This document shows, piece by piece, positions 38,271 through 57,528 of a DNA stretch of 64,000 bases (its first letter is position 1; each line of letters begins with the position of its first letter). Source of the DNA: Glutamicibacter creatinolyticus. GTDB taxonomy: Bacteria > Actinomycetota > Actinomycetes > Actinomycetales > Micrococcaceae. The stretch covers positions 186,001-250,000 of the forward strand of contig NZ_CP034412.1 in the NCBI RefSeq assembly GCF_006094275.1. Reading direction: 5' to 3'. A program made the position numbers and the translations under genes. The notes under the pieces were generated by a model. That model searched no databases. It saw only the letters and a list, made by a program, of their open reading frames with translations, and was not told the DNA's origin.

Positions 38271-40229
38271 CTAGCGGTGGCGGCAGATTTGCTCCAGCTT
38301 CGCGATGCATGGCTCGTTTTGCAGGCTGGTGGTGTCACCCAGTTCGGTGCCCTGGAACAGCTGGGTCAGCAGCCGGCGCATGATCTTTCCGGAGCGGGTC
38401 TTGGGCACGTCCGGGACCAGCACCACGTCCCGCGGCTTGGCGATCGGGCCGATCTGCCGGCGCACGGTCTCCCGCAGCTCTGCCACGAACGCCTCGCGCC
38501 TCGCCGCGGTGGCCGCATCCGGTGCGGCCGCGACCAGCGACTGGTCCAGCGGCACCACGAACGCGGTGGCCGCGTGCCCGGTGGTGGCATCCGGGGTGGG
38601 GCACACCCCGGCCTCCACGACGCCCGGATGGGTGACCAGCGCCGATTCGATTTCAATGGTGGACAGCCGGTGCCCGGAGATGTTGATGACGTCATCGGTG
38701 CGTCCCAGGATCCAGATGTCCTCATCCGCATCGAACCGGGCCCCGTCCCCGGCCAGGAACCAGCCCTGCTCGGCGTACTGCTTCCAGTAGCTGGTGTAGT
38801 AGCGCCGCGCATCGCCCCACACGGTGCGGGCCATTGCCGGACCGGTGCGGGTGATGACGATGTTGCCCTGTTCGCCGGGGGCCACACGTGTTCCCTGGGC
38901 GTCCACGATGTCCACCGCGACCCCCGGGGTGGCTCGCGCGGCACAGCCGGGCTTGAAGCCGGTGTCGGTGGGCCGCGGGGAGAGGATCGTCGCCCCGGAC
39001 TCGGACTGCCACCAGGTGTCCACCATGGGGATGCCTTCGGCGGTGTTGCGTCCCACTTCGGTGCGCAGCCAGCGCCAGGCTTCCGGGTTCACCGCCTCGC
39101 CCACGGTGCCGCCCACCCGGATGGAGGACAGGTCATAGTGTGCCGGGATGCCGTCGGGGAACCAGCCCATGAGGGAACGCACCAGGGTGGGGGCCGTGTA
39201 GTAGCTGGTGACCTTGTAGCGTTCGATGATCTCAAAATGCCGTCCCGGGTGCGGAGCGTTGGGCACCCCCTCGTAGATCACCTGGGTGACCCCGTTGGCC
39301 AGGGGACCATAGATTTCGTAGGTGTGGGCGGTGACCCAGGCCAGGTCCGCCGTGCACCAGTGCACGTCCAGCTCGCGCAGCGCCGGGTCCGGGTTGGCGA
39401 ACAACAGGTTGTGGCTGTAGGCGGCCTGGGTCAGGTAGCCGCCGGTGGTGTGCACCAGCCCCTTGGGCTTGCCGGTGGTCCCGGAGGTGTACATGATGAA
39501 CAGCGGGGTTTCGGCGTCAAAGGCCTGGGCCTGGTGTTCGGTGGGCTGGCTGTCCACCAGCTCGTGCCACCACACGTCCCGTCCCTCGGTCCAGGCGATG
39601 TCGCACCCGGTGCGCCGGATCACCAGCACGTTCTCAATGTTGTTCTCCCCGGCCACCGCCGTGTCCGCGTTGTCCTTGACCGGGACGGCGGCGCCGCGGC
39701 GAAACTGGCCGTCCGTGGTGACCAGCAGCTTCGCTGCGGTGTCCTCGACCCGGAACTTCAGGGCCGCGGCGGAGAACCCGCCGAAAACCAGGGAGTGGAT
39801 CGCGCCAATGCGGGCGCAGGCCAGGGTGATGACCACCGTCTCCACCAGCACCGGCAGGTAGATGACCACCCGGTCACCCTTCCCGATGCCCAGTTCGGTC
39901 AGCGCGTTCGCGGCCTGGCATACCCGTTCGGCCAGTTCCCGGTAGGTGACGGTCTCCCGGTCCCCGGGTTCCCCCTCGAAGTACAGGGCCACCTTCTCAC
40001 CGCGGCCGGCCGCCACATGCCGGTCCGTGCAGTTCACGGCGGCGTTCAGCGTGCCGCCCAGGTACCAGGAAATCTGCGGGCCGCGTTCGGCGGCGGGGTC
40101 GGCGGCAACGATCCGGGAGGTGGTGTGCCATCGGGTGTCCCAGTCCAGCAGGTTCGCCGCTTCATCCCAGAAGCGCTGGCGGGTGGCTTCGTCGGTGCTT
40201 TCCTCGGAGGTGAGGTCGATGGTTGTCAT
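38271..40229 (-). CDS. acsA: Acetyl-CoA synthetase
   Basis: 652 aa, AMP-forming acetate-CoA ligase. The ATP loop YTSGTTGKPKGLVH, the WWQSESGA specificity region and the C-terminal SGKIMRR with the regulatory/catalytic lysine are all present. It begins only 32 bp after the end of the sulfonate ABC permease gene on the same strand, with no terminator seen between, so it may be transcribed from the S-box-controlled ssu promoter. A role in using acetate derived from C2 sulfonates is an inference. Confidence 0.95.
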   Translation of the reverse strand: MTTIDLTSEESTDEATRQRFWDEAANLLDWDTRWHTTSRIVAADPAAERGPQISWYLGGTLNAAVNCTDRHVAAGRGEKVALYFEGEPGDRETVTYRELAERVCQAANALTELGIGKGDRVVIYLPVLVETVVITLACARIGAIHSLVFGGFSAAALKFRVEDTAAKLLVTTDGQFRRGAAVPVKDNADTAVAGENNIENVLVIRRTGCDIAWTEGRDVWWHELVDSQPTEHQAQAFDAETPLFIMYTSGTTGKPKGLVHTTGGYLTQAAYSHNLLFANPDPALRELDVHWCTADLAWVTAHTYEIYGPLANGVTQVIYEGVPNAPHPGRHFEIIERYKVTSYYTAPTLVRSLMGWFPDGIPAHYDLSSIRVGGTVGEAVNPEAWRWLRTEVGRNTAEGIPMVDTWWQSESGATILSPRPTDTGFKPGCAARATPGVAVDIVDAQGTRVAPGEQGNIVITRTGPAMARTVWGDARRYYTSYWKQYAEQGWFLAGDGARFDADEDIWILGRTDDVINISGHRLSTIEIESALVTHPGVVEAGVCPTPDATTGHAATAFVVPLDQSLVAAAPDAATAARREAFVAELRETVRRQIGPIAKPRDVVLVPDVPKTRSGKIMRRLLTQLFQGTELGDTTSLQNEPCIAKLEQICRHR

Positions 40230-40261
40230 CGAAGAAAATCCTTTACACGTGGTCGCGGGCC

Positions 40262-41086
40262 CTAGGCCCAGCGGGCAATGGCCTTGCGTTCGGCGATGGA
40301 CAGCAGGGCATCGGTGAGTTTGCCGAAGATCGCCAGCAAGATGATGGTCAGGATCAGGCGGTCAATGCGCCCATTGTTTTGGGAATCGGTGAGCAGGAAC
40401 CCCAGGCCCATGGAGGCGCCGAGCAGTTCGGCCGCCACCAGGAACAGCCATGCCTGGGCCAGGGCCAGGCGCAGCCCGGAGAAGATCGCGGGAACCACGG
40501 CCGGCAGCTGAACGGTGCGCAACAGGCGCAGGCCCCGGTAGCCAAAGGAGCGGGCCGCCTCCACCAGCTGGGGATCCACGTGGCGCAGCGCCAGGGAGAC
40601 GGTGGTGAAGACCGGGAAGAAGGCGCCGATGATGATCAGGGTGACCTTGGAGTCCTCACCCATCTTCATCCACAGCACCAGCAGCGGAACCCAGGCCAGT
40701 GACGGGACCGCGCGCAGCGCCCCGATGCTCAGGCTCAGCAGGGCATCGGCCAGCTTCGATAGTCCCACCAGGGCACCGAAGACCAGGCCCAGCAGCGAAC
40801 CGGCGGCAAAGCCCAACAGGACCCGCTGGGCGGAGATGCCTATGTGGGTCCACAGCTCGCCGCGCTCCAGCAGGTCAACGGCGGCGGTGATGACGGAGGC
40901 CGGGGTGGGCAGCGCATAGGAGGGCACCAGTCCGCTTGTCGTGGCCAACTGCCACGCCACCAGGACCAGGGCGGGGACAACCAGGCCCACCAGCCAGTGC
41001 GGGAGCCCCAGCAGTGCGGCGAGCAGCCCGGCGCGCGGGGCATCGGCTTGTGTGGTGGCCGGCTGCTGGTCAACAGGAGCGGTCAT
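40262..41086 (-). CDS. ssuC: Sulfonate ABC transporter permease
   Basis: 274 aa, six predicted membrane helices, BPD-type permease fold with the EAA loop EAARSFGYRGLRLLRTVQLPA. It resembles SsuC/TauC. It follows the substrate-binding protein gene by 3 bp. With SsuB and SsuA it forms a complete importer; aliphatic sulfonates or taurine are the expected substrates. Confidence 0.9.
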   Translation of the reverse strand: MTAPVDQQPATTQADAPRAGLLAALLGLPHWLVGLVVPALVLVAWQLATTSGLVPSYALPTPASVITAAVDLLERGELWTHIGISAQRVLLGFAAGSLLGLVFGALVGLSKLADALLSLSIGALRAVPSLAWVPLLVLWMKMGEDSKVTLIIIGAFFPVFTTVSLALRHVDPQLVEAARSFGYRGLRLLRTVQLPAVVPAIFSGLRLALAQAWLFLVAAELLGASMGLGFLLTDSQNNGRIDRLILTIILLAIFGKLTDALLSIAERKAIARWA

Positions 41087-41089
41087 CGC

Positions 41090-42103
41090 CTATTCACCCG
41101 CAATCTGTGAGGCATCGGCCTGCCGGGCAAACTGGTCGTCAACCAGGGTGTCCAGTGCGGCGTCCACCTCGGCTTGGCTCTTCACATCGCCGCTGTCGAC
41201 AAACACCGGCCCAATGTTGCCCAGCACCTGAACGAACTTCTCGCCCGGGACCGCCGCCACGTCGAGGTTGGATCGCTCGGAGATGACCGTGTCGGCGACC
41301 TGAGCGTCCAGTCCGGCGACATCGGCCAGGATCTGTGCGGTTTCCTCCGGGTGGCTGCCGGCCCACTGGCGCGCCTTCTCATAGGCGTCAACCACGGTCT
41401 GCGCCACTTCCGGGCTGTCCTTGAGGAAGTCCTCACGGGCGTTGAGCGCCCCATAGGTGTTGAAGTCCAGGTTGCGGTACAGCAGGCGTGCCCCGTCCTG
41501 TTCGGCGGACGCCATGATCGGGTCCAGTCCGCTCCAGGCATCCACCGAGCCGTTGGCCAAAGCGGTGCGCCCGTCGGCGTGCTGCACGTTCTGCAACGTG
41601 ATGTCCTTTTCCCCCAACCCCGCCTCCTGCAGGGCCTGCAGCAGGAAGAAGTAGGGGTCGGTGCCCTTGGTGGCCGCGACCTGCTTGCCCTTCAGGTCGG
41701 CGACCGAGGAAACCGGTGAATCCTTGCCCACGACCAGTGCTGACCATTCGGGCTGCGAGTACAACGCGATCGTCTTGATCGGGGAACCGTTGGAGCGGGC
41801 CAGCAGGGCGGCGGATCCGGCGGTGGAGCCCACGTCGATGGCGTCCGCACGCAGTGCCTCGTTGGCCTTGTTTGACCCGGCCGACTGGATCCATTCGACG
41901 CTGATGCCGTCGTCGGCCAGCGCATCCTCCAGCCATCCCTTTTCCTTCAGCACCAGGCTCAGGGGGTTGTAGGTCGCATAGTCGAGGGTCAGGGTCTCAC
42001 CGGCAGCGGCGTTCTCCCCGGCGCAGCCGCTGAGGCTGCTCGCGGCCAATGCCACGGCGGCGAAGGTGAATGCGCAACGGCGGGACAGGATGAATTTTGA
42101 CAT
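41090..42103 (-). CDS. ssuA: Sulfonate ABC transporter substrate-binding lipoprotein
   Basis: 337 aa from ATG 42103. A lipoprotein signal peptide ends at SLSGC (C27). The mature part is an NMT1/THI5-like SsuA domain (TLDYATYNPLSLVLKEKGWL, AIDVGSTAGSAALLARSNG, KGKQVAATKGTDPYFFL). It captures sulfonates outside the membrane for SsuBC. It is the middle gene of ssuB-ssuA-ssuC. Confidence 0.9.
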   Translation of the reverse strand: MSKFILSRRCAFTFAAVALAASSLSGCAGENAAAGETLTLDYATYNPLSLVLKEKGWLEDALADDGISVEWIQSAGSNKANEALRADAIDVGSTAGSAALLARSNGSPIKTIALYSQPEWSALVVGKDSPVSSVADLKGKQVAATKGTDPYFFLLQALQEAGLGEKDITLQNVQHADGRTALANGSVDAWSGLDPIMASAEQDGARLLYRNLDFNTYGALNAREDFLKDSPEVAQTVVDAYEKARQWAGSHPEETAQILADVAGLDAQVADTVISERSNLDVAAVPGEKFVQVLGNIGPVFVDSGDVKSQAEVDAALDTLVDDQFARQADASQIAGE

Positions 42104-42194
42104 GGGAATCCTTAGCGGGTGGGTTCGGCGGCGCACGGGAGCAGGCCCGGACGCAAGGGTGAGGGATGGGCAGGAAGGCGACGCGGCGCGGGGG

Positions 42195-43022
42195 TTAATG
42201 GCCCGACGGGTCGACACCGAGCAGCTGCAGCAGATGCGCGCGCTGGGCGGTGAATCCGGAACCCGTCCGGTTGCGGGGCCTGTGGGAGTTCAGGGGCAGG
42301 TCCTCGATGACCCCGGCCCCGTTCTGCTTCTGCTCCGCGTTCGGCCGCCGGTGCCCCAGGACAATGACGCGGTCGGCCAGGCTCAGGGCCTCGTCCACGT
42401 CATGGGTGACCATCAGCACCGTGGTCGGGAACGAACGGTGGATGTCCAGCAGCAGATCCTGCATTTTCAGGCGGGTCAGGGCATCCAGCGCGCCGAACGG
42501 TTCGTCCAGCAGCAGGACCCCGGGGCGCCGTGCCAGGGCGCGGGCCAGTGAAACGCGCTGGGCCATGCCCCCGGAAATCTCGCGCGGACGAAGTTCCGCC
42601 GCGTGGGTGAGTTCGGTCAGTTCCAGCAGCTCGGCGATCAGCTCGCGCCCGGCCTGGGCGGTCAGCTGCGGAGACAGGCCCAGGGCGATGTTCTGGCGCA
42701 CCGTCCGCCACGGCAGCAACCGGGGTTCCTGGAACGCCACCGCACAGCGGTCATCGATTCCCTCCACGGCGTGGCCGCCAATGCGGACCTGGCCGACACT
42801 GGGGTGATCCAGGCCGCTGACGGTGCGCAGCAGTGTGGACTTGCCGCAGCCGCTGGCGCCCAGGATGGCCACCACCTGACCGGCGGTGATCTGCAGGTCG
42901 ATGCCCGACAGGACCGTGCGGGTCTGCCGTCCTGCGGTGAACGAACGCCCCAGGTTGTGGAACTGAACCGATCGGGCAGTGGATGGCGCCACGGGTGTGG
43001 GCGACACAAGGACAGTACTCAT
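42195..43022 (-). CDS. ssuB: Sulfonate ABC transporter ATP-binding protein
   Basis: 275 aa. Walker A GASGCGKSTLLR, Q-loop FQEPRLLPW, signature SGGMAQR, Walker B VLLLDEPFGALD and the switch histidine THDVDEAL are complete. The ATG at 43022 is chosen because GGAG lies six bases upstream; upstream ATGs at 43028 and 43034 fall inside the riboswitch P1 helix. First gene of the ssu operon, directly behind an S-box aptamer. Confidence 0.93.
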   Translation of the reverse strand: MSTVLVSPTPVAPSTARSVQFHNLGRSFTAGRQTRTVLSGIDLQITAGQVVAILGASGCGKSTLLRTVSGLDHPSVGQVRIGGHAVEGIDDRCAVAFQEPRLLPWRTVRQNIALGLSPQLTAQAGRELIAELLELTELTHAAELRPREISGGMAQRVSLARALARRPGVLLLDEPFGALDALTRLKMQDLLLDIHRSFPTTVLMVTHDVDEALSLADRVIVLGHRRPNAEQKQNGAGVIEDLPLNSHRPRNRTGSGFTAQRAHLLQLLGVDPSGH

Positions 43023-43030
43023 TGTCATCT

Positions 43031-43135
43031 CCATCGCTTCTGGCGTTAGCACCGTCCATGCAGGAAGAGGCCTTCTCCCCGTCATGGTGGTTGCTGCGGC
43101 GTCAACGAGCCAGATCTCTCGGCCGCTCGGGATGG
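43031..43135 (-). ncRNA. SAM-I (S-box) riboswitch, ssuBAC leader
   Basis: Minus-strand aptamer: CCATC opens P1, then GAGCGGCCGAGAGATCTGG, GACGCCGCAGCAACC, a longer variable arm, TAACGCCAGAAGCGATGG closing P1. The closing GATGG overlaps the GG of the ssuB Shine-Dalgarno (GGAG), so ligand-stabilised P1 should directly block ribosome binding: a translational switch. Confidence 0.9.
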
Positions 43136-43405
43136 TTACGCCACCATGTAATCGTCCCGAACGGATGGAAGGCAAATCGTTCGTAATGTGACGAATCTTC
43201 GAAGCATACGTTTCTGGGGCCGGTAATTCTGGTATTTCTTTGATCCCTTGTGGATTCTGCATCATTCTGCCGCTTGAGGGGGTCAGGCTGTAACGTCCTG
43301 CCCATTCGCGCGATCCGGGCGTTCGACGTCATCTGCGCTTCATGCCCCGAAATATGACGCCAGGCCTTGAGCCGGCTTCGTCACCGCCGGTACAAATGAG
43401 ATGAA
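43136..43405. promoter_or_regulatory. Divergent promoter region between two S-boxes
   Basis: This 270-bp AT-richer stretch must hold the promoters of both the ssu operon (minus) and the first monooxygenase pair (plus), since each side begins with its own riboswitch. Exact -35/-10 boxes could not be assigned with confidence. Confidence 0.5.
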
Positions 43406-43489
43406 CCATCCAGAGCGGCCGAGAGATCTGGCTCCACGACGCCGCAGCAACCACCCCATGCGGGCCGGTGCTACCGCCAGGACCGATGG
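43406..43489 (+). ncRNA. SAM-I (S-box) riboswitch, first monooxygenase operon
   Basis: CCATC (P1), GAGCGGCCGAGAGATCTGG, GACGCCGCAGCAACC, GGTGCTACCGCCAGG and closing GATGG. The gene start follows 18 bases later; its GAGG Shine-Dalgarno lies seven bases beyond P1 rather than inside it, so the mechanism may differ from the ssuB switch. Confidence 0.9.
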
Positions 43490-43507
43490 AAGAATTGAGG
43501 CTCTTGC

Positions 43508-44848
43508 ATGTCATTCGGCGAACCCCAACCGGACTTCAACACGCTGTCCGACCCTGCCCAGGCCCCTGCGGGCAACGCCGTGGACCTGGACCAGCACCCC
43601 GAGCAGCTGCCCGAGCGGCAGCTGCTGAAGATCACCCCGGGGCCTGGGGCCGACGAACAATATGAACGCCTGGCCGCCACCTTCCGGCCGGTCTTCGCGC
43701 AAATCGCCGAGGGCGCGGCCCACCGGGACCGGGAGCGCATCCTGCCCTTTGAGCAAGTGGGGCTGCTGAACCGGGAACGCTTCGGGGCCCTGCGCGTCCC
43801 GGTGGACCGCGGCGGGTACGGTGCCCGCATGTCCGATGTCTTCCGCCTGCTGATTGAACTGGCCGAAGCCGACTCCCACATCGCCCAGCTCTGGCGTGCC
43901 CACCTGGCCTTCGTCGAAGACGTGCTGGCCTTCGAGGACCAGTCGCTGCAGGCCAAATGGCTGGAGCGGATCTCCGCCGGGCACATTGTGGGCAACGCCT
44001 ACACCGAACGCGGCGGCAACCGGCTGGGCAGCCTGAACACCACGGCCACCGAGCACGAGGGCCGCTGGTTCGTCACCGGGGAGAAGTACTACTGCACCGG
44101 GACCATCTTTGCCGACTGGACCATGGTGGCCGTGGCCCACCCGCAGCTGCCCGGTCGGCAGATCGCCGTCGTGGCCACCCAGCATTCCGGGGTGCGGATC
44201 CTGGATGACTGGGACGGGTTCGGCCAGCAGCTGACGGGCACCGGCACCACTACGTTCGAGCGGGTCCCGGTGGACAGCTTCATCCCGCAGCATGAGAACG
44301 ACACCGAATCGGCGATCTTCCAGCTGGTGCTGCTGGCCGTGCAGGCCGGCGTGGCCCGCGCGGCGCTGAATGACCTGCGCTCCTCGGTCCAGCTGCGCAC
44401 CCGCAGCTTCAGCACCGGCACCGGGGTCCCGGTCCGCCACGAACCGCAGGTCCTGCAGGTCGTGGGGGAGGTCTCGGCCGAGGTCTTCGCCATCGAGTCG
44501 GTGGTGATGGGCGCCGTGCTGGAGGTCGAGGCCGCCCTGGCCGACGCCAACCTGAGCCCCGCCGAACGCTATGCGGTGTGCGAGTTGGCCGCCAACCGCG
44601 CCCAATCGGTCACCCAGCCGCTGACCATCGGGGTGACCAGCAAGCTCTTTGACCCGCTGGGCGCCTCGGCCACCAAGGCCAGCTGCAACATGGACCGGCA
44701 CTGGCGCAACGCCCGCACCATCGCCACCCACAACCCCGCCATCTACAAATCCCGCATCGTGGGCGACTACGAGATCAACGCGGTGCCCCCGGTGCGGCTG
44801 AACGCCACCGGGGACGTCCCCGCCCCGGGCCAGGTCAGCTTCCGCTAG
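43508..44848 (+). CDS. DszC/SfnC-like flavin-dependent monooxygenase (acyl-CoA dehydrogenase fold)
   Basis: 446 aa. The acyl-CoA dehydrogenase-type fold begins near residue 50 (ADEQYERLAATFRPVF); typical group marks are NAYTERGGNRLG, FVTGEKYYCTG, RILDDWDGFGQ and the late DRHWRNARTIATHNP. Enzymes of this group (DszC, SfnC) use reduced FMN and O2 to oxygenate organosulfur compounds. Compared with its paralogue at 54886 it has an extra ~35-residue N-terminal extension. It follows an S-box and precedes an LLM monooxygenase, a pairing expected for stepwise C-S cleavage. Substrate unknown. Confidence 0.85.
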   Translation: MSFGEPQPDFNTLSDPAQAPAGNAVDLDQHPEQLPERQLLKITPGPGADEQYERLAATFRPVFAQIAEGAAHRDRERILPFEQVGLLNRERFGALRVPVDRGGYGARMSDVFRLLIELAEADSHIAQLWRAHLAFVEDVLAFEDQSLQAKWLERISAGHIVGNAYTERGGNRLGSLNTTATEHEGRWFVTGEKYYCTGTIFADWTMVAVAHPQLPGRQIAVVATQHSGVRILDDWDGFGQQLTGTGTTTFERVPVDSFIPQHENDTESAIFQLVLLAVQAGVARAALNDLRSSVQLRTRSFSTGTGVPVRHEPQVLQVVGEVSAEVFAIESVVMGAVLEVEAALADANLSPAERYAVCELAANRAQSVTQPLTIGVTSKLFDPLGASATKASCNMDRHWRNARTIATHNPAIYKSRIVGDYEINAVPPVRLNATGDVPAPGQVSFR

Positions 44849-49064: not shown

Positions 49065-49462
49065 CCCCCAGCGGTTTTTCCGCGCCGGTGGATCGGCCGG
49101 CTCGTGGATGAGGAATCTGTACAGGGTTTCACAGGGCTCCAACTGCGGGACAGGGGCAAGCAGGCCCGGCCCTGCGGCTGCTGCACGGTGCTGCCCCCGG
49201 TCCGCGGATGCGTGTAAGACCCGCGCCACCCGCTACAGCGGGCGCGGTGGCACCGGCGCCATCCTGCCGGGGGGATTGTCAAGGATCTGCGGTTTTCGCC
49301 TTCACATAATGACTTACCGGCGCATGTGACCCCATTGTTACGGTGCTGCCGAGCCTTTGTCGCCTCCTCGGTGACGATGTGACGTCGATGTTTCGTCATG
49401 GTTGGTCACATGAATGTCCCCGCCGCACACTGAAATCACCCGGAACACCCACCGGAACAACA
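49065..49462. other. Upstream region of the second organosulfur operon
   Basis: No gene is supported in these ~400 bp. ATGTGAC appears at 49324-49330 and 49377-49383, and its inverse GTCACAT at 49405-49411, forming a possible operator pair. The promoter for the S-box transcript must lie here, but no convincing -35/-10 pair could be fixed. Confidence 0.45.
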
Positions 49463-49547
49463 CCATCCAGAGCGACTGAGAGACCTGGCTCGTTGACGTC
49501 GCAGCAACCACCCCGACGGGGAGCGGTGCTAAGGCCAGGACCGATGG
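49463..49547 (+). ncRNA. SAM-I (S-box) riboswitch, ABC transporter operon
   Basis: CCATC (P1), GAGCGACTGAGAGACCTGG, GACGTCGCAGCAACC, GGTGCTAAGGCCAGG and closing GATGG. Base changes relative to the other three copies are compensatory or in loops (for example GCGAC/GTCGC in place of GCGGC/GCCGC), supporting a folded RNA. It is followed by a 121-base leader before the first gene. Confidence 0.9.
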
Positions 49548-49602
49548 AGATTGCTAGATTTCGCAACGGTCCCCGAACACGGGCGGATGTCTGCCTGTTT
49601 TG

Positions 49603-49668: not shown

Positions 49669-51300
49669 ATGCGGCCACCACGTTTGGCGCTGAAAGCCAC
49701 CGCACTGCTTGCGGCCCTGGGGCTGTCGTTGACCGCATGCGGCGGCAGCGGCGTGGCAAGCCCGAACACCGAGTCGGCACAGTCGGCCGGCGACCCGGTG
49801 CAGGGTGGAACCCTGACCTACGCCGAGGTCACCCCCATCGACAACTGGCAGACCCAGGCGGCCCGGTTCTACGAGAAGGCCAACGTGCTGAACTCGGTGC
49901 TGGACCGGCTGACCTATTTTGACGCCGAGCAGGGCAAGCTGGTGGGGTGGATCGCCAGCGGCTTCACCTCCAACGAGGCCAAGACCCAGTACACGTTCAC
50001 CATTCGTGATGGGGTGACGTTCTCCAACGGCACCGCACTGGATGCCAAGGCCGTCAAGGCGAACCTGGACGCGCTGGGACTGGGCATCAAGGATGCGCAG
50101 ATCCAGCCGAACGTGGATTTCTCGGCGTACAAGTCCTCCAAGGTGCTGGACGGGAACAAGGTCCAGGTCACCCTGAAGCGTCCGGACGCCAACTTCCTGC
50201 GCGCCACCTCCTCGGTGACCGCCGGGCTGGTGGCCCCCGAAACGCTGAAGCTGGACAACGCCGGGCAGTCGGCGATCTCCAAGATCGTGGGTTCGGGACC
50301 GTTCGTCTTCGCCTCGGAAAAGCCCGATGAGGAAGTGGTGTTCAGCGCCCGCGACGACTACGCCTGGGCTCCGCAGGGTGCACAGAACCCGGGGGCTCCC
50401 TACCTGGATGAGCTGGTCATCAAGTACCTGCCGGAGGTTGCGCACCGTGCCGGTGCCGCCCAGTCCGGGCAGGTGGACCTGGTTCGGGGATTGCAGCCGG
50501 TGGATGAGCAGGTGCTGAAATCCGGCGGCGGCCAGGTGTTCGCCGCGCAGGGCGTGGACTTGACCACCAACAACGCCTCGGTGCGCATTGGCTCCGGGCA
50601 GCTGGCCGACGCCAAGGTCCGCCAGGCGCTGCAGGTGGGCATCGACCGCCAGGCGCTGAAGGACACCGTGCTTTCGGACAGCTATGTGATTTCCGCATCG
50701 ATTCTGAACCACAAGGCCCCGGGCTTCGTGGACTTCTCCGCGGAATTGGCCTACGACCCGGCGCGCTCCAAGGAGCTGCTGGATGAGGCCGGCTGGGTTC
50801 CGGGACCGGATGGGATCCGGCAGAAGGACGGGAAGAAGCTGGAGGTCACCGTCGCCTCCTCGAACAACTCGGTGGTCATCAAGCCGGCCTTCGAACTTAT
50901 TGAGCAGCAGTGGCGCGAGATCGGGGTCAAACTGGTGAACCGGGCAGCGGACAACACGTTCCTGACCAGTGCCCTGGTCGATGACAAGGTCGAATTCTTC
51001 GGCACCCGGCAGTTCGCCTACGGCGGGCTGGGGCCGGTCTTCGGGCCGGCGAACAACACCCAGACGCTGAACGCGGACGAAGAGCTGAACGAACTGTTCA
51101 CCCGGGAACAGGCGGCCACCACCGAGCAGGAGCACCTGAAGCTGATCGGTGAGGAACAGCGTGCCCTGGTGCTGGACAAGGCCCTGACCCTGGTGCTGTG
51201 GGATGAGGTCCAGGTCTACGGCGCGCATTCGGGCACCCACGTCGACTTCACCTCCGGCACCGCCCCGATCTTCCAGGGCGCCTGGAAGAGCGGCAAGTAG
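49669..51300 (+). CDS. Peptide/nickel-type ABC substrate-binding lipoprotein
   Basis: 543 aa, SBP family 5. The signal peptide ends at SLTAC (C24). Conserved parts include the opening QGGTLTYAEV, YTFTIRDGVTFSNGTALDAKAVKANLD and the late EELNELFTREQAA. Family members bind dipeptides, oligopeptides, nickel complexes, opines or glutathione. Encoded first after an S-box and upstream of matching permeases, ATPase and monooxygenases, its cargo is expected to contain sulfur; the compound is unknown. Confidence 0.88.
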   Translation: MRPPRLALKATALLAALGLSLTACGGSGVASPNTESAQSAGDPVQGGTLTYAEVTPIDNWQTQAARFYEKANVLNSVLDRLTYFDAEQGKLVGWIASGFTSNEAKTQYTFTIRDGVTFSNGTALDAKAVKANLDALGLGIKDAQIQPNVDFSAYKSSKVLDGNKVQVTLKRPDANFLRATSSVTAGLVAPETLKLDNAGQSAISKIVGSGPFVFASEKPDEEVVFSARDDYAWAPQGAQNPGAPYLDELVIKYLPEVAHRAGAAQSGQVDLVRGLQPVDEQVLKSGGGQVFAAQGVDLTTNNASVRIGSGQLADAKVRQALQVGIDRQALKDTVLSDSYVISASILNHKAPGFVDFSAELAYDPARSKELLDEAGWVPGPDGIRQKDGKKLEVTVASSNNSVVIKPAFELIEQQWREIGVKLVNRAADNTFLTSALVDDKVEFFGTRQFAYGGLGPVFGPANNTQTLNADEELNELFTREQAATTEQEHLKLIGEEQRALVLDKALTLVLWDEVQVYGAHSGTHVDFTSGTAPIFQGAWKSGK

Positions 51301-51311: not shown

Positions 51312-52268
51312 ATGGGCGGATACATTGCCAAGCGCGTTGGCCAGGCCCTGCTGGTCATCTGGCTGGCCTACACCGCGGTTTTCCTGGCGGTGCAGGCCCT
51401 GCCGAATGACCCGGTGACCATCTTCCTGTCCACCGACGCCGCCGCGGACCCGGCCACCATCGCACAGCTGAAGGCCCACTACGGCTATGACCAACCGCTG
51501 ATCACCCAATACCTGGGGCAGCTGTGCGCGCTGCTGCGCGGGGACCTGGGCTACTCGCTGTCCTCCGGGGCGCCGGTGGCCGCCCGGATCGGGGAGGTCA
51601 TCGGATCCACCCTGGTCCTGGCCGGCAGCGCCTTCGTGCTGGCCGTCCTGCTGGCGGTGGCCCTGGTGGCCGCGGCCACCCTGGCCCGCGGTGAGCGGCT
51701 GCGCCGGGCGCTGTTGAACCTGCCGCCGCTGTTCATTTCAATCCCGGTGTTCTGGCTGGGCCTGGTGCTGCTGCAGCTGCTGGCCGTGCAGCTGGGGGTG
51801 ATGTCCCTGTTCCCGGACGGTTCGGCGCTGTCGCTGCTGGTGCCGATCCTGGTGCTGGCCCTGCACCTGAGCGCACCGATCGCCCAGGTGCTGCTCAAGA
51901 GCGTTCAGCAGGTCTCGGCCCAGCCGTTCGTGGACGTGCTGCGCGCCAAGGGGGCCGGAGAGTCCTGGATCTTCTACCGCCACACCCTGAAGAACGCCGC
52001 CCCGGCCGCGCTGTCGATTGCCGGGATCACCATCGGCACCCTGCTGGCCGGCTCGGTGATCACCGAGACCGTGTTCGCCCGCGCCGGACTGGGGCAGCTG
52101 GTGCTGCAGGCGGTCACCGTCCAGGACATTCCCCTGGTGCAGGGGCTGGTGCTGCTCACCGCCGCCACCTTCACTGTGGTGAACCTGCTGGTGGACCTCA
52201 TCCACCCGCAGCTGGACCCCCGAATCATTACCGCCCACGCCGGCTCGGCACGGGCCCTGGCCGCCTGA
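51312..52268 (+). CDS. ABC transporter permease (DppB type)
   Basis: 318 aa, six helices, with the N-terminal MGGYIAKRVGQALLVIWLAY typical of DppB/OppB and the EAA-type loop around FVDVLRAKGAGESWIFYRHTLKNA. GGGAGG precedes the ATG, 11 bp after the binding-protein gene. Works with the DppC-type permease and the fused ATPase that follow. Confidence 0.9.
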   Translation: MGGYIAKRVGQALLVIWLAYTAVFLAVQALPNDPVTIFLSTDAAADPATIAQLKAHYGYDQPLITQYLGQLCALLRGDLGYSLSSGAPVAARIGEVIGSTLVLAGSAFVLAVLLAVALVAAATLARGERLRRALLNLPPLFISIPVFWLGLVLLQLLAVQLGVMSLFPDGSALSLLVPILVLALHLSAPIAQVLLKSVQQVSAQPFVDVLRAKGAGESWIFYRHTLKNAAPAALSIAGITIGTLLAGSVITETVFARAGLGQLVLQAVTVQDIPLVQGLVLLTAATFTVVNLLVDLIHPQLDPRIITAHAGSARALAA

Positions 52269-52282
52269 AGGGACAAGGGATC

Positions 52283-53173
52283 ATGAGCGTACTGACCGAA
52301 CAGAACACCACCCCGGCCGGGCTGCCGCTCCCGGAGCCGGCACCAACCACCGCGGCGCCAGCACCGGGCCGCCCGGTGCGCCGCTGGCTGGGACGCTGGT
52401 GGATGCTGCTGCCGCTGGGCCTGCTGCTGGCCTGGGCGCTGGTGCCCGGCGCGTTCAGCGCAGCGGACCCGATCACCGGGATCCCGGCGCAGAAGCTGAG
52501 CGCCCCCAGCCCCGCCCACCCCTTTGGCACCGACCACCTGGGCCGCGACGTGTACTCCCGGGTGGTGCACGGCACGCGGCAAACCCTGATGACCGCGGGA
52601 CTGGCATGCCTGATCGGTTCGGTGCTCGGCAGCGTGCTGGGCCTGCTGGCCGGCACCGCCGGAAGGGCGGCGGACGCCGTGGCCATGCGCCTGGTGGACG
52701 TGCTGCTGGCGGTGCCCGCGTTCCTGATCGCGCTGATCCTGGTCACCGCCACCGAGCCCGGGCCGCTGTCCCTGGGCCTGGGGGTGGGGATCGCCTCGAT
52801 CGCCGCGTTCGCCCGGCTGGTGCGCACCGAGGTGCTGCGGGTGCGCTCCCACGACTTCGTGCAGGCGGCACTGATGAGCGGCGGCGGCTACTTCACCGTG
52901 CTGCGCCGGCACATCCTGCCGCACGTGATCGGACCGGTGCTGGCCCTGCTCGCCGTGGATTTGGGGGCGGCGATCCTGGCCATCTCGGGACTGGGTTTCC
53001 TGGGCTTCGGCGCCCCGCCGCCCACCCCCGAATGGGGGCTGCTGATTTCCGAGGGACGCCAGTACCTGTCGGTGGCCTGGTGGCTGACCACCCTGCCGGG
53101 CCTGGTGATCGTCACGGCCGTCATGCTCACCGCCGCCCTGGGGCGCAGCATCAACCGCGCCTTCCGCTTCTAG
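52283..53173 (+). CDS. ABC transporter permease (DppC type)
   Basis: 296 aa, about six helices. The DppC/OppC pattern HPFGTDHLGRDVYSRVVHGTRQ precedes helix 2, and the coupling loop reads VRSHDFVQAALMSGGGYFTVLRRHILPH. A Pro/Ala-rich cytosolic N-terminus of ~35 residues precedes the first helix. The next gene starts 16 bp after its stop. Confidence 0.9.
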   Translation: MSVLTEQNTTPAGLPLPEPAPTTAAPAPGRPVRRWLGRWWMLLPLGLLLAWALVPGAFSAADPITGIPAQKLSAPSPAHPFGTDHLGRDVYSRVVHGTRQTLMTAGLACLIGSVLGSVLGLLAGTAGRAADAVAMRLVDVLLAVPAFLIALILVTATEPGPLSLGLGVGIASIAAFARLVRTEVLRVRSHDFVQAALMSGGGYFTVLRRHILPHVIGPVLALLAVDLGAAILAISGLGFLGFGAPPPTPEWGLLISEGRQYLSVAWWLTTLPGLVIVTAVMLTAALGRSINRAFRF

Positions 53174-53189
53174 GACAAGGACAGTGGAC

Positions 53190-54815
53190 ATGGAAATGAA
53201 CACCAAGAACACCCCCGCCGCACCGGTGGTGCGCATCGAGGACCTCACGGTACGCTACCCCGGCGGGACGGTGGCCGCCAACGGGCTGGACCTGCACATC
53301 CCCTCGGGGCAGATCCTCGCCGTTGTCGGGGAATCCGGGTCCGGCAAGTCGACCCTGACCAAGGCGCTGATCGGGCTGCTGCCGGCCGGCACCCGCGTCG
53401 AGGGGTCCATCCGCTTTGGCGGCACCGAGGTGACGAGCCTGGATGTGCGCCGCTGGCGGGCCATCCGCGGGGCCGGCATCGGGCTGGTGCCCCAGGATCC
53501 GGGCTCCAGCCTGGACCCGGTGAAGACCATCGGCTCCCAGCTGATCGAGGTGTTCCGGCTGCACCCGCAGCGTTCGGTGCCCAAGGCCCAATGGCGGTCC
53601 CGGGTCGTCGAACTGCTGGCAAGCGTGGGCGTTGACCGCCCGGAATACCGGCTGGGCCAGTACCCGCACGAGCTGTCCGGCGGACTGAAGCAGCGGGTGC
53701 TGATCGCGATCGCCTTCGCGCTGGACCCGCAGCTGCTGATCGCCGATGAGCCGACCAGCGCCCTGGACGTCACGGTGCAGCGCACCGTGCTGGAGGTCTT
53801 CGTATCCCTGGCCCGGCAAAAGGGCACCACGGTCCTGTTCGTGACCCACGACCTGGCGGTCGCCACGGACATCGCCGACCGGGTGCTGGTGATGAATTCG
53901 GGGCGGATCCTGGAGGACCGCAGCGTGCGCTCGCTGATCACCGAAAGCACCGAACCCTACACCCGGGCGCTGCTGGCCCAGGCCACCGGCAACCGGCAGC
54001 GGCCCCAACCGGTCGCACACGCAGACATCGCGATCGACGTGCAGGAGGTGTCCAGGACCTTCGGCCGCGGCGCCACCGCCCACCGTGCGGTGCACCAGGT
54101 CAGCTTCCAGGTCCCGCGCGGCACCACGTTCTCCCTGGTCGGGGAATCGGGTTCGGGCAAGTCCACGACCGCCAAGCTGATCATGGGCCTGCTGGATCCG
54201 CAGTCCGGGCAGATCCGGGTCAACGGGCAGCGGGTGGGTGCGGCCCACGGCCGGCGCCGGCACCAGCTGTGGCGCCAGGCCCAGCTGGTCTACCAGAACC
54301 CGGACTCGGCGTTGGACCCGCGCCAGCGCATCGCATCGATCATTGCCGAGCCGTTGCTGAACTACCGGCTGGGGGACCCGCGCTGGCGTTCCGGACGGGT
54401 GGCCGAGCTCATGGAGCAGGTCAACCTGGCCCCTTCCCTGGCCGCGGCCCGCCCGCCCCAGCTCTCCGGCGGACAGCGCCAGCGGGTGGCGATCGCCCGG
54501 GCGCTGGCGTCCGGGGCCGAGATCCTGGTGCTGGACGAGGCGCTGAGCGCACTGGATGTGCTCACTCAGGAGCAGATCCTGGCCTTGCTCCAGTCCCTGC
54601 AGCGCGAGCACGGGCTGACCTACCTGTTCATTTCCCACGACCTGCATGTGGTGGAACGCATCAGCCACCATGTGGGGGTCATGCGGCGCGGGGAGCTGGT
54701 GGAGAGCGGCAGCGTGCACCAGGTGTTCACCGAACCGGCCCACCCCTACACCCGCACCCTGCTGGCGGCGAACCCCGGGCAGGTTCTGCGTGAACTGTGC
54801 CCTGCCGCCGGCTGA
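53190..54815 (+). CDS. Fused dual ABC ATPase (DppD-DppF type)
   Basis: 541 aa from ATG 53190. It contains two complete ABC domains: the first with GESGSGKSTLTKALIG, LSGGLKQR and IADEPTSALD, the second with GESGSGKSTTAKLIMG, LSGGQRQR and VLDEALSALD. The fusion supplies both nucleotide-binding sites for the two permeases. Walker B of the second half reads LDEALSALD, with the usual Pro replaced by Ala, a common variant. The DszC-like gene follows 70 bp later on the same strand. Confidence 0.92.
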   Translation: MEMNTKNTPAAPVVRIEDLTVRYPGGTVAANGLDLHIPSGQILAVVGESGSGKSTLTKALIGLLPAGTRVEGSIRFGGTEVTSLDVRRWRAIRGAGIGLVPQDPGSSLDPVKTIGSQLIEVFRLHPQRSVPKAQWRSRVVELLASVGVDRPEYRLGQYPHELSGGLKQRVLIAIAFALDPQLLIADEPTSALDVTVQRTVLEVFVSLARQKGTTVLFVTHDLAVATDIADRVLVMNSGRILEDRSVRSLITESTEPYTRALLAQATGNRQRPQPVAHADIAIDVQEVSRTFGRGATAHRAVHQVSFQVPRGTTFSLVGESGSGKSTTAKLIMGLLDPQSGQIRVNGQRVGAAHGRRRHQLWRQAQLVYQNPDSALDPRQRIASIIAEPLLNYRLGDPRWRSGRVAELMEQVNLAPSLAAARPPQLSGGQRQRVAIARALASGAEILVLDEALSALDVLTQEQILALLQSLQREHGLTYLFISHDLHVVERISHHVGVMRRGELVESGSVHQVFTEPAHPYTRTLLAANPGQVLRELCPAAG

Positions 54816-54885: not shown

Positions 54886-56109
54886 ATGAGCACCCACGCC
54901 ATCCAGGCCACCAGCGACGAAGCGGTCTACCAACGCCTGCTGGAACGCTTTCGCCCGGTCTTCACCCGCATCGCCCAGGGCGCCCGGGAGCGCGAACAAC
55001 ACCGTGAACTGCCCTACCAGCAGGTGGCGTGGCTCAAGGACGCCGGCTTCACGGCGCTGCGGGTCCCGGCCAGCCACGGCGGAACGCCGGTGAGCCACAC
55101 CGACCTGTTCCGGCTGCTGATCGAATTGGCTGCCGCCGACTCCAACGTGGCCCACCTGCTGCGCAGCCACTTCTCCTTCGTGGAGACCATCGCGCTGCAG
55201 CCCGCCGAGTTCCAGGACCGCTGGTTCCCGCGGGTGCTGGCCGGCGAAATCTTCGGCAACGCCGCCACCGAACGCGGCGGCAACGCCCTGGGCGCCACGA
55301 ACACCAAGCTGATCAACACCGGGGCCGGGTGGGTGCTGCGCGGGGAAAAGTACTACACCACCGGCTCCATCTTCGCCGACTGGGTGGTGGTGATGGCCTC
55401 CACGGACGGCGTGGAGGGGCGGCAGTACGCGGTCGTGGAACGCACCGCGCCGGGCGTGCGGATCCTGGATGACTGGGACGGCTTCGGCCAGCCGCTGACC
55501 GGCACCGGCACCGCCATCTTTGAGGATGTCCCGGTGCAGGAGCAGAACATCATCCAGCGCAAGGTCGCCTCCACCCTGGAACCGGCGTTCTTCCAGCTGT
55601 GCCTGCTGGCCGTGCTGGTGGGCATCGGCAAGGCGGCCCGTGGCGAGGCGGCCGGGCTGGTGGCCGCGCGCACCCGCACCTTCAACACCGGTTCCGGGGC
55701 GCTGTTCCGCGATGACGCACAGATCCAGGAACTGGTGGGGCGCCTGGCCGCCAACGTGTTTGCCGCCGAGTCGATTGTCATCACCGCCGCCCGGGAACTG
55801 GATGCCGCCCACGATGCGGCGCTGGGGCTGGACGAGCAGCAGGCCTACCTGCGCGCCGAACTGGCGGTGCAGCAGGCCCACGTGGCCACCCCGAAGCTGG
55901 TGCTGGATGCCACCAGCGAGCTGTTCGACGTCACCGGCGCCTCCGCGGTGTCCACCAGCAAGTCGCTGGACCGCTACTGGCGCAACGCGCGCACCGTGGC
56001 CACCCACAACCCGGTCGCGTTCAAGGCCCGCTCCGTGGGGGACTACTTCATCAACGGCACCATCCCCACCGGGTTGAACTCCATTGGCGAAGCGAAGGGA
56101 AAGAAGTAA
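54886..56109 (+). CDS. DszC/SfnC-like flavin-dependent monooxygenase, second copy
   Basis: 407 aa from ATG 54886, preceded by AGAGGAG. It is a paralogue of the protein at 43508, sharing FRPVF, FRLLIELA, ATERGGNALG, RGEKYYTTGSIFADW, RILDDWDGFGQPLTGTGTA and YWRNARTVATHNP, but without its long N-terminal extension. The acyl-CoA dehydrogenase-type fold with FMN suggests oxygenation of an organosulfur compound brought in by the upstream ABC system. The next gene begins directly after its stop. Confidence 0.87.
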   Translation: MSTHAIQATSDEAVYQRLLERFRPVFTRIAQGAREREQHRELPYQQVAWLKDAGFTALRVPASHGGTPVSHTDLFRLLIELAAADSNVAHLLRSHFSFVETIALQPAEFQDRWFPRVLAGEIFGNAATERGGNALGATNTKLINTGAGWVLRGEKYYTTGSIFADWVVVMASTDGVEGRQYAVVERTAPGVRILDDWDGFGQPLTGTGTAIFEDVPVQEQNIIQRKVASTLEPAFFQLCLLAVLVGIGKAARGEAAGLVAARTRTFNTGSGALFRDDAQIQELVGRLAANVFAAESIVITAARELDAAHDAALGLDEQQAYLRAELAVQQAHVATPKLVLDATSELFDVTGASAVSTSKSLDRYWRNARTVATHNPVAFKARSVGDYFINGTIPTGLNSIGEAKGKK

Positions 56110-57528
56110 ATGGGAACCTTTGACCAGCGACCGCGCCTGCTGCTGTCCGCCTTCTTGATGAACACCTCCAGCCACATCCTGGGCGGCATGTGGCGCCACC
56201 CGCAGGCCCAGCAGCACCGCTTCCACGAACTGGCGCCCTGGGTGGACCTGGCCCGCAAACTGGAGGACGCGAAGTTCGACGCCATGTTCTTCGCCGACGT
56301 GGTGGGCCTCTATGGGGACCACGAGGGCGGCTGGGCCTCCCACGTGCGCAAGGGGCTGCAGGTGCCCAGCCACGATCCACTGGTGCTGCTCTCCGCGCTG
56401 GCCGCCGGCACCGGGCAGATCGGGCTGGCCATGACCAGCTCGGTCATCCAGGCCCACCCCTTCCAGTTCGCCCGCCAGCTCTCCACCCTGGACCACCTCT
56501 CCAACGGCCGGGTCGCCTGGAACATTGTCACCAGCGTCCTGGAAAACGCGCACCGCAACTTCGGGGGAGCCTCCCTGGTCGCCCACGATGACCGCTACAG
56601 CTGGGCGGAGGAATACGTGGAGGCCGCCTACAAGCTGTGGGAAGGCTCCTGGGCGGACGACGCGCTGCTGGCGGACAAGGCTAACGGGATCTACGCGGAT
56701 CCGGACAAGGTCAGCAAGATCAACCACCGCGGCCAGATCTATTCCATCGACGGGCCGCACCTGGCCGTGCCCAGCACCCAGCGCACCCCCTTCCTCTTCC
56801 AGGCCGGTTCCTCCCCGCGCGGCACCCAGTTCGCCGCGACCCACGCCGAGGCGACCTTCCTGTTCGCTCCGCACCCGCAGTACGTGGCCAAGAAGGTCGC
56901 CCAGCTGGATACGAACCTGCAGGCGGCCGGGCGCCGCCGCCAGGATCTGAAGGTTTTCGCCGGGCTTTCCTTCGTGGTGGGCTCCACCGAGGCGGAGGCC
57001 AAGGCGCTGGAAGCCGAATACGACCAGTACCTGGACCCGCACGCGATCATCGCGCACATCGGCGGCGGGCTGGGAATCGACCTGGGAGGACTGGAGCTGG
57101 ACACCCCGCTGGGCCAGGTGCAGACCGAAGGCGCCCAGGGGGTGCTCGAAGCGGTGCTGGCCTCCACCCCCGGCGGCAACCCGACGCTGCGGGATCTGGC
57201 CCACTACCGGGCGAAGGCCCAGCAGCTGGTCGGAACCCCGGAACAGATCGCCGACCAGCTGGAGCAGTGGCAGGACGCGGGCATCGACGGGCTGAACATC
57301 ATGAACCACGTGCTGCCCGGCTCCTACGACAACTTCATTGACGGGCTGCTGCCCGAACTGCGTCGCCGCGGACTGGCGCAAACCCAGTACACCCCGGGAA
57401 GCCTGCGCCACAAGGTGTTCGGGCGCGGGGACCGGCTGCCGTCAAACCACCCGGCCGCCGCGTTCCGCGGGGCATTCACGCACTCCAGCGCCGCCAGCGG
57501 CCAACCGGAGCAGAATCTGGTCCCGTAG
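56110..57528 (+). CDS. LLM flavin-dependent monooxygenase (NtaA/SnaA/DszA family), second copy
   Basis: 472 aa, paralogue of the protein at 44894. Shared features include MWRHPQAQQ, KFDAMFFADVVG, HLSNGRVAWNIVTSVLENAHRNFG and PFLFQAGSSPRG. The ATG follows the DszC-like stop with no gap, so the two are translationally linked. It is expected to use reduced FMN and O2, acting after the DszC-like enzyme. The operon ends with two hairpin terminators. Confidence 0.9.
   Translation: MGTFDQRPRLLLSAFLMNTSSHILGGMWRHPQAQQHRFHELAPWVDLARKLEDAKFDAMFFADVVGLYGDHEGGWASHVRKGLQVPSHDPLVLLSALAAGTGQIGLAMTSSVIQAHPFQFARQLSTLDHLSNGRVAWNIVTSVLENAHRNFGGASLVAHDDRYSWAEEYVEAAYKLWEGSWADDALLADKANGIYADPDKVSKINHRGQIYSIDGPHLAVPSTQRTPFLFQAGSSPRGTQFAATHAEATFLFAPHPQYVAKKVAQLDTNLQAAGRRRQDLKVFAGLSFVVGSTEAEAKALEAEYDQYLDPHAIIAHIGGGLGIDLGGLELDTPLGQVQTEGAQGVLEAVLASTPGGNPTLRDLAHYRAKAQQLVGTPEQIADQLEQWQDAGIDGLNIMNHVLPGSYDNFIDGLLPELRRRGLAQTQYTPGSLRHKVFGRGDRLPSNHPAAAFRGAFTHSSAASGQPEQNLVP

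Follow-up and report, generated by a model that had tools for sequence, protein, structure and literature searches.

SAM-I riboswitch aptamers precede organosulfur import, flavin monooxygenase and methionine genes in Glutamicibacter creatinolyticus and other Micrococcaceae

We examined a 64,000-nucleotide (nt) stretch of the Glutamicibacter creatinolyticus genome (contig NZ_CP034412.1, positions 186,001 to 250,000; hereafter, the window), in which aptamers of the S-adenosylmethionine (SAM)-sensing class SAM-I, Rfam family RF00162, stand before genes for sulfur acquisition. One aptamer precedes the importer genes ssuBAC, which are followed on the same strand by a gene for an acetate-CoA ligase (acs). 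A second precedes a pair of genes for an sfnB-like flavin monooxygenase and a luciferase-like monooxygenase (LLM), and a third precedes a peptide-type ABC importer together with a second such pair. The fourth lies upstream of metY, the gene for O-acetylhomoserine sulfhydrylase, at 28 kb. A first-pass annotation of the sequence had placed four SAM-I elements (S-boxes) at these positions and described the genes behind them in the same order, and our searches bore out both the elements and the genes (Table 1). It had overlooked acs, which occupies the first 2 kb of the interval that it discussed.

The whole window was searched with cmscan against the 4,227 families of Rfam 15. Four RF00162 matches were returned at 51.0 to 60.6 bits, all above the gathering cut-off of 44.4 bits, with E-values of 1.4e-11 to 8.6e-9 calculated over the window; each spans the full model (positions 1 to 108) and is the top match of its clan at its place. 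RF00634 (SAM-IV) gave no match over its own cut-off in the window. The SAM-I blocks GAG, GCAACC, CUGGC, GGUGC and GAUG, as well as the P1 helix, are kept in the three aptamers for which alignments were printed. The genome as a whole contains seven SAM-I sites, all above the cut-off. One of the three beyond the window precedes metF-metE and a second O-acetylhomoserine-sulfhydrylase-like gene (L002, L273), another lies upstream of metNI (L003), and the last is upstream of a third DszC/SfnB-like gene that is followed by a fourth sfnB-like gene (L007, L274). SAM-I matches were present in all 18 genomes of the genus, this one included, with 4 to 8 in each and 116 in total at E-values up to 0.001, 6 of them below the gathering cut-off. 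Given the E-values in the window and the presence of SAM-I throughout the genus, a chance origin of the window aptamers is very unlikely.

Table 1. Genes and SAM-I aptamers of the window, numbered from its first nucleotide.
Feature	Coordinates	Strand	Evidence
CoA_binding_2 protein directly after metY	26463..26957	-	PF13380 142.8 bits
metY, O-acetylhomoserine sulfhydrylase	26957..28321	-	TIGR01326 594.6 bits, cut-off 495.1
SAM-I aptamer upstream of metY, distal	28444..28538	-	RF00162 51.0 bits; P1 to metY start 125 nt
acs paralogue, last gene of ssuBAC run	38271..40229	-	TIGR02188 753 bits, cut-off 724.95; acetate pocket residues kept; own clade
ssuC-like permease	40262..41086	-	PRK11365 176.9 bits, below cut-off 347
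ssuA-like binding protein	41090..42217	-	TIGR01728 229.7 bits, cut-off 163.5
ssuB-like ATPase	42195..43022	-	Scanned as 42195-42995: ntrCD 212.6 bits, SsuB PRK11247 207.2 bits, both below cut-offs
SAM-I aptamer of ssuBAC-acs	43028..43138	-	RF00162 55.9 bits; Shine-Dalgarno GGAG overlaps P1 3' strand
SAM-I aptamer of first sfnB-like/LLM pair	43403..43492	+	RF00162 53.9 bits
sfnB-like flavin monooxygenase 1 (SfnB1)	43508..44848	+	TIGR04022 258.3 bits, cut-off 430.9; nearest solved relative methanesulfinate monooxygenase, 127 bits
NtaA/DmoA-family LLM monooxygenase 1 (LLM1)	44894..46297	+	TIGR03860 545 bits, cut-off 279.7; nearest solved relative dimethyl sulfide monooxygenase 6ak1, 565 bits
SAM-I aptamer of importer and second pair, distal	49460..49550	+	RF00162 60.6 bits; P1 to start 121 nt
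Peptide-type substrate-binding protein	49669..51300	+	TIGR04028 353.6 bits, below cut-off 468.5
Importer permease 1	51312..52268	+	Opp/Nik-type permease models, below cut-offs
Importer permease 2	52283..53173	+	Opp/Nik-type permease models, below cut-offs
Fused double ATPase of importer	53184..54815	+	Two ABC_tran stretches
sfnB-like flavin monooxygenase 2 (SfnB2)	54886..56109	+	Scanned as longer open reading frame 54646-56109: TIGR04022 298.9 bits, below cut-off; MsuC 129.6 bits, TdsC 128.9 bits
NtaA/DmoA-family LLM monooxygenase 2 (LLM2)	56110..57528	+	TIGR03860 495.3 bits; HcbA1 6lr1 474.5 bits, DmoA 404.2 bits
Second CoA_binding_2 protein, putative operon member	57659..58075	+	PF13380 115.4 bits

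Both LLM proteins pass TIGR03860, the model of NtaA/DmoA-family flavin mononucleotide monooxygenases. Against solved structures, LLM1 scored 565 bits with dimethyl sulfide monooxygenase (DmoA), 275 with DszA and 226 with YtnJ, while LLM2 scored 474.5 bits with HcbA1, 404.2 with DmoA and 232 with DszA. The nearest solved relatives of the two sfnB-like proteins are methanesulfinate monooxygenase (MsuC) and TdsC, whose scores are low and close to each other (127 and 121 bits for SfnB1; Table 1 for SfnB2). Neither protein reaches the cut-off of the SfnB equivalog TIGR04022, nor do the third (264.2 bits) and fourth (241.8 bits) such genes of the genome; we therefore name them sfnB-like only. With the DszC model NF043015 (cut-off 850), the window proteins scored 112.2 and 114.1 bits and the third gene 258.5. 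The two pairs had been called DszC-like/DszA-like, which is misleading, and we rejected a simple DszABC desulfurization reading because the DszC cut-off is missed by a wide margin and because the LLM proteins score much higher with DmoA or HcbA1 than with DszA. The name DszC-like is fairer for the third gene, given the ranking of its nearest structures (8cda, a "probable monooxygenase," 263 bits; methanesulfinate monooxygenase, 230; DszC, 215). The binding protein of the first importer passes the SsuA-family model TIGR01728, and the SsuB and SsuC equivalog cut-offs were missed (207.2 versus 395 and 176.9 versus 347 bits). At an E-value of 1e-60, none of the 18 genus genomes gave an SsuD match, compared to 3 of 14 controls, and the importer encoded by ssuBAC therefore seems to function in the absence of the usual SsuD. 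Its neighbor LLM1, whose gene is divergent from ssuBAC, is a natural candidate for the cleavage of the carbon-sulfur bond. Judging from the nearest relatives of these enzymes, our guess is that the substrates are C1 organosulfur compounds.

To survey the genes behind SAM-I sites, we took as much as 5 kb of downstream sequence from 223 sites and searched it with 20 query proteins. The sites comprised 116 from the genus, 104 from other actinobacteria and 3 from Sphingobacterium, with four genomes that share the coordinates of a congener counted once. A query gene lies within 450 nt of 107 of the 116 genus sites and of 79 of the 104 other actinobacterial sites. Among the nine genus sites left over, five precede an ABC cassette and then an LLM gene, three precede a methionine-synthase-like open reading frame (judged from its first residues, and in one case of uncertain frame), and one, which scores just 33.4 bits, has no sulfur gene. 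At L166, L128, L137, L139 and L191, SAM-I stands before an ABC cassette, with an LLM gene 4.7 kb further along; Pfam was applied to L166 alone, where it identified the binding protein as Peripla_BP_4, and the arrangement is a candidate for further organosulfur import. Some of the 25 leftover sites in other actinobacteria, 3 of which end at a contig edge after 96 to 461 nt, were also tested with Pfam. Methionine-synthase-like open reading frames follow SAM-I in G042 and G032, a flavin reductase stands ahead of acs and metY in Nesterenkonia G043, and an OsmC-like gene directly follows SAM-I in G023 (L211, 9685-10266).

In Nesterenkonia aurantiaca (L252, 401-5497), SAM-I is followed by a sulfite-reductase-type gene and two genes of the PAPS-reductase family, and sulfate assimilation is probably under the same class of RNA there. 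By contrast, sulfate assimilation appears to lie outside the SAM-I set of G. creatinolyticus, judged by cysN alone, with no search for cysH, cysD or sulfite reductase: cysN is present in all 18 genomes of the genus, and neither of the two copies in this genome (C1:1357519 and C1:1838022) is near its seven SAM-I sites. The proposal that SAM governs the entire scavenging route from import to MetY is accordingly too wide. The cysN copy at G000:C1:1357519-1358745 was found in only 3 of the 18 genomes.

We also tallied same-strand runs of query genes within 5 kb of SAM-I in each of the 44 actinobacterial genomes that have the aptamer; such runs may include genes that have an aptamer of their own. 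Genes of the sfnB/DszC-like type occur in the runs of 38 genomes, acs in 37, LLM genes in 35, metY in 34, other pyridoxal-phosphate enzymes of cysteine and methionine metabolism in 27, metNI in 23, ssu genes in 22, the importer in 14 and metF in 12.

The reach of the SAM-I set among relatives was sampled in two ways. Named relatives with sfnB-like genes amounted to at least 79 loci, from which 50 were taken and 48 genomes were searched for RF00162; the closest among the matches listed are Glutamicibacter and Arthrobacter strains, with approximately 75% identity to SfnB1. RF00162 was present in 31 of the 48 genomes, namely 30 of 33 actinobacterial genomes and 1 of 15 others (a Sphingobacterium). 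A same-strand SAM-I site lies within 150 nt upstream of the sfnB match at 18 of the 33 actinobacterial loci, one of which (L053, 44.1 bits) is just below the gathering cut-off, and 2.5 to 5 kb upstream at 7 more. Outside the Actinobacteria, upstream SAM-I was found at none of the 15 loci searched. Of 119 genomes sampled from the order, 58 contain SAM-I, 53 of them with a match over the cut-off. Some of 27 leaders picked from this sample, most from other families, precede ssuBAC-, importer-, LLM-, metF- and metN-like genes. Two genomes of another family of the order (G143 and G171) have 13 and 8 matches, regulons larger than in the genus of the window, with ssuBAC- and importer-like genes after SAM-I in the stretches seen, and LLM genes too in G143. 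Overall, the operons of the window are probably the local part of a family-wide Micrococcaceae SAM-I regulon that also holds acs, metF-metE and metNI.

The acs gene of the window encodes a second acetate-CoA ligase of the AcsA type. In an alignment with the Salmonella enzyme it keeps V310, T311, V386 and W414, which we take to be the acetate-pocket positions of Salmonella Acs. In the genus, 17 of 18 genomes carry three acs-type genes at E-values up to 1e-150, scoring 910 to 932, 745 to 761 (the window type) and 622 to 656 bits; the 910- to 932-bit gene lies away from any SAM-I site and is the only one present in G004. Among the 37 of 44 genomes with acs in a same-strand run after SAM-I, the aptamer before acs scores below the gathering cut-off in three (G025, G028 and G049). 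The gene is the first one recognized within 400 nt of SAM-I in 17 of the 44 genomes, and it comes after ssu genes in 16 (in G006, only an ssuC stretch was seen), including 11 of the 18 within the genus, our own counted. In G021 and G029, which belong to both groups, a second aptamer stands inside the ssuBAC-acs run just before acs. Five genomes have acs 547 to 728 nt after SAM-I, among them G043 with the flavin reductase between, and in G023 it lies 2.4 kb after SAM-I, behind the OsmC-like gene. In 7 of the 44 genomes acs is followed by metY with no aptamer between them. In a tree of 45 acs rows, a branch with support of 100/100 separates 37 SAM-I-linked rows from 8 others; the linked rows come from 36 of the 37 genomes, G036 having been lost to a length filter. 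Because MetY releases one acetate for each sulfur that it fixes, we infer that the SAM-I-linked acs recovers this acetate.

The leaders differ in how closely the aptamer approaches the ribosome-binding site. The start of ssuB is at 43022 rather than at the start of the longest open reading frame, and its ATG lies 5 nt past the end of the Rfam aptamer. The leader there reads GAUGG-AGAUGACA-AUG, so that the Shine-Dalgarno sequence GGAG crosses the end of P1 and overlaps GAUGG, with the AUG 8 nt after GAUGG. This is the geometry of direct occlusion, in which the Shine-Dalgarno lies in or adjacent to P1 and the start a few nucleotides on. When folded with ViennaRNA, the ssuB ribosome site had an openness of 0.23 with P1 forced and 0.97 with P1 forbidden. 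The sfnB1 leader is intermediate between this class and the distal one: GAGG begins 8 nt beyond P1 and the AUG 18 nt beyond it, and the folds with P1 forced and forbidden were alike. The start of SfnB2, a gene inside the importer run, is at 54886, preceded by GAGGAG. Distal leaders of the genome have their start 63 to 125 nt beyond P1, with 77 to 125 nt for those of the importer, metY, metF and metNI; direct-occlusion geometry is absent at the importer and metY aptamers, where these distances are 121 and 125 nt.

A script that picked the best Shine-Dalgarno site of each leader scored 163 of the 223 leaders and left 60 without a score. The chosen site runs across the aptamer end in 18 of 21 ssuB leaders, 10 of 18 acs leaders, 9 of 24 leaders in which SfnB1 was the best query, 5 of 21 metN leaders and 52 of the 163 overall, although 4 of the 52 are artefacts of start picking with the start inside the aptamer (one importer, two metY and one acs). 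When a stricter script was applied to the 27 leaders from other parts of the order, P1 and the Shine-Dalgarno overlapped in 7. Because GAUGGAG also occurs in leaders with a distant start, the P1 sequence is not shaped by Shine-Dalgarno use alone. Across five sets of distal leaders, the 8 metF leaders were predicted by RNAalifold to form a hairpin on the Shine-Dalgarno side, and the other sets to have little structure, with covariation scores from -0.52 to 0.61 over the five sets. Inspected by eye, most of 13 importer leaders share UCCUCGG...CCGAGAGGA right before the start, a possible hairpin that could pair in either of two registers.

Taken as a whole, we consider it probable that these elements form a Micrococcaceae SAM-I regulon that is on at low SAM and translationally off at high SAM, and that it includes a dedicated acetyl-CoA synthetase. 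When SAM is plentiful, its binding would stabilize P1 and block translation. At ssuB the Shine-Dalgarno itself is part of P1 and would be occluded directly; at the importer, metY, metF and metNI, where the start is distant, translation may instead be blocked by a hairpin close to the Shine-Dalgarno. As SAM falls, the organosulfur importers and the flavin monooxygenases that free sulfur would be made. MetY and MetF/MetE would then convert the freed sulfur to methionine, MetNI would import methionine, and the dedicated acetyl-CoA synthetase would recover the acetate that MetY releases with each sulfur fixed. More tentatively, and with less conviction than we attach to the regulon as such, we suggest that many genes across the Micrococcales use a one-domain SAM-I in which the P1 3' strand, GAUGGAG(G), is the Shine-Dalgarno and no separate expression platform exists, and that these switches control a whole organosulfur-to-methionine economy, the acetate-recapturing acs included; in distal leaders, GGAG may mimic a Shine-Dalgarno and compete for the anti-Shine-Dalgarno.

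Several observations weigh against this explanation. In the six leaders of the genome other than ssuB, forcing or forbidding P1 changed the openness of the ribosome site by 0.05 or less, so that the switch in these six is putative. Eight of the 33 actinobacterial sfnB loci have no same-strand upstream SAM-I (Sinomonas, two Microbacterium, Curtobacterium sp. S6, Brevibacterium, Salinibacterium, Arthrobacter agilis and Rothia), and a genome-wide search for RF00162 found no SAM-I in either Microbacterium genome or in the Salinibacterium genome. Of the 223 surveyed sites, 18 score below the gathering cut-off (6 of 116 in the genus and 12 of 107 elsewhere), and the count of 38 of 44 genomes for sfnB is inflated because 26 of the 44 were selected by sfnB similarity, acs having been no criterion. 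MetX-like genes occur in all 18 genomes of the genus, every one below the curated cut-off, likewise in the 6 control genomes with a match. The other two acs genes of the genus lie away from SAM-I, so acetate-CoA ligase activity as such needs no SAM-I control; the comparison set of the acs tree is 8 genes from 5 genomes, for which the program warned of long branches; and the recycling of MetY acetate is deduced from gene order and pocket residues. In addition, one of four terminator-like sites found in two leader regions lies between aptamer and gene, at 49580-49593 in the importer leader.

That site bears on whether the switch could be transcription termination, as in the classic S-boxes of Firmicutes. 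The scan returned two weak terminator-like sites in each region (0.5 and 0.4 expected), and a sigma-70 scan of the same regions returned no promoter, results that say little in a high-GC actinobacterium. We regard termination as improbable, since the importer site is a weak stem of 5 pairs and since the aptamers of ssuB and sfnB1 are followed by just 5 and 15 nt before the start, with no terminator-like site in either gap (the scan did not extend to the metY leader). The same lack of terminator-like sites may leave transcription of ssuB and sfnB1 free of RNA control, as expected if SAM-I were a secondary brake that fine-tunes translation while a DNA-binding regulator (CymR-, CysB- or McbR-like) sets transcription. 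Protein control is the norm for sulfonate genes, and we hold a protein-first arrangement to be possible, if somewhat doubtful: an RNA element stands before each separate unit, and acs keeps its own aptamer where no ssuBAC follows and even has a second inside the ssuBAC-acs run of G021 and G029.

The role of acs can likewise be read in other ways. Its place after ssuBAC, here and in 16 of 44 genomes overall (in G006, behind the ssuC stretch), puts it next to import rather than methionine synthesis, as would suit an enzyme that activates acetate from substrate carbon (carbon-sulfur cleavage to an aldehyde, then oxidation) and not from MetY. We judge this source of acetate unlikely, given that acs is followed by metY in 7 of 44 genomes and that no aldehyde dehydrogenase is among the families found in the sulfur operons of the window; the two accounts are not mutually exclusive. 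Its position after ssu genes in 11 of the 18 genus genomes would also fit a passenger that is co-transcribed by position only. This we consider very improbable, because in 17 of 44 genomes acs itself is the first gene recognized within that 400-nt distance of an aptamer, and because it is a distinct paralogue in genomes that have another acs.

Other features near these operons were noted. CoA_binding_2 genes stand right after metY, as they also do in metY segments of the genus, and after LLM2. A gamma-glutamyltranspeptidase gene (46389-48230, minus strand) is convergent with LLM1 and is found on the opposite strand past the first pair in 13 genomes; a link to glutathione sulfur is possible. 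Between metY and the sulfur genes, at 30697-38131, lie a Rieske oxygenase, a ferredoxin-type reductase, an alcohol-dehydrogenase-like gene and a BCCT transporter, a group possibly for the use of betaine or choline. A thiamine pyrophosphate riboswitch is present at 63129-63223 (plus strand, 65.2 bits, above gathering). ARAGORN placed a tRNA-Arg(tcg) at 45977-46050 (plus strand), inside the LLM1 frame; none was predicted in four related loci, and we discarded it as a probable false positive.

Among the titles and abstracts searched, we found no report of such a regulon or of SAM control of acs, most subscription papers and RegPrecise being outside the search. Within the Actinobacteria, the portion of Sun et al. 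2013 that we consulted covers Corynebacteriaceae and Mycobacteriaceae only (PMC3766115), and an excerpt of another study describes a leader upstream of a Bacillus alkanesulfonate transporter that was found via a terminator screen (PMC2965389). The first-pass annotation had described an island in one organism and suggested that it may be an undescribed regulon. No description was found in the literature searched, but the system is probably part of a family-wide regulon rather than a single island, and Pelagibacter offers a precedent with SAM-V and SAM-II that lacks the importers. Its interpretation as a whole is partly supported: RNA of a SAM-sensing class does precede import, monooxygenase and MetY genes, while the width of the route, the Dsz names and the single-organism scope do not hold. 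The kinds of component (SAM-I, LLM, SfnB-like, AcsA) are known; what looks like a new variation is that a single RNA signal unites them and that SAM-I has a Shine-Dalgarno within P1. If the proposed regulon is real, one RNA signal can, in common actinobacteria, replace the protein regulators usually credited for the use of sulfonates and sulfones, even at the importers, and the best-studied class of SAM riboswitch would have a one-domain design. Methionine synthesis by direct sulfhydrylation would then carry a hidden cost in the form of acetate recovery, and many unassigned sfnB-like and LLM monooxygenases would be tied to sulfur limitation.

Comparison with known systems begins with the enzymes. 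DmoA is the nearest solved relative of LLM1 and MsuC that of SfnB1, the latter only distantly and with TdsC almost as close (121 bits). In Bacillus subtilis, the ytmI/ytnJ operon combines an NtaA-family LLM with importers for sulfur scavenging under the control of CymR and YtlI; YtnJ is more weakly related to LLM1 than DmoA is (226 bits), and its operon is under proteins and is not known to be under SAM-I. At the level of RNA, the window resembles classic SAM-I (RF00162) in its full-length aptamers above gathering, its conserved core blocks and the methionine genes among its targets. It differs in that most targets are organosulfur importers, monooxygenases and acs, in that the scanned leaders have no clear terminator, and in the Shine-Dalgarno across P1 at ssuB and other sites. 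A comparable placement of the Shine-Dalgarno may occur in the SAM-IV leaders of actinomycetes.

Direct-occlusion riboswitches hold the ribosome-binding site in or beside the ligand-bound fold, as at ssuB, although their aptamer folds differ. The section of a 2024 review on direct occlusion names SAM-II/V, SAM-III, SAM-SAH and some preQ1 riboswitches, not SAM-I (PMC10907184). According to the same review, one riboswitch class can use several mechanisms, and one preQ1-I attenuates at up to 10 nt (PMC10907184). In Xanthomonas, SAM-I acts mainly on the translation of methionine genes through a separate anti-Shine-Dalgarno hairpin (PMC7270179), whereas the Shine-Dalgarno of ssuB is contained in the P1 strand. 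The closest parallel in regulation is Pelagibacter, where bhmT, metY, mmuM and osmC stand behind SAM-V and SAM-II riboswitches and increase when sulfur is limiting, unlike the importers of organosulfur compounds (PMC5069961). The two systems share translation-blocking SAM riboswitches, a mechanism predicted in our case, and metY as a target, with a response to sulfur limitation that was measured in Pelagibacter and is predicted here; osmC behind SAM riboswitches in both Pelagibacter and G023 hints at a shared role in sulfur stress. They differ in aptamer class and in the constitutive importers of Pelagibacter, in contrast to importers that themselves stand behind the RNA here. Because an RNA-run sulfur response is already known from Pelagibacter, the new part in G. 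creatinolyticus and its relatives would be import and desulfurization under SAM-I in actinobacteria.

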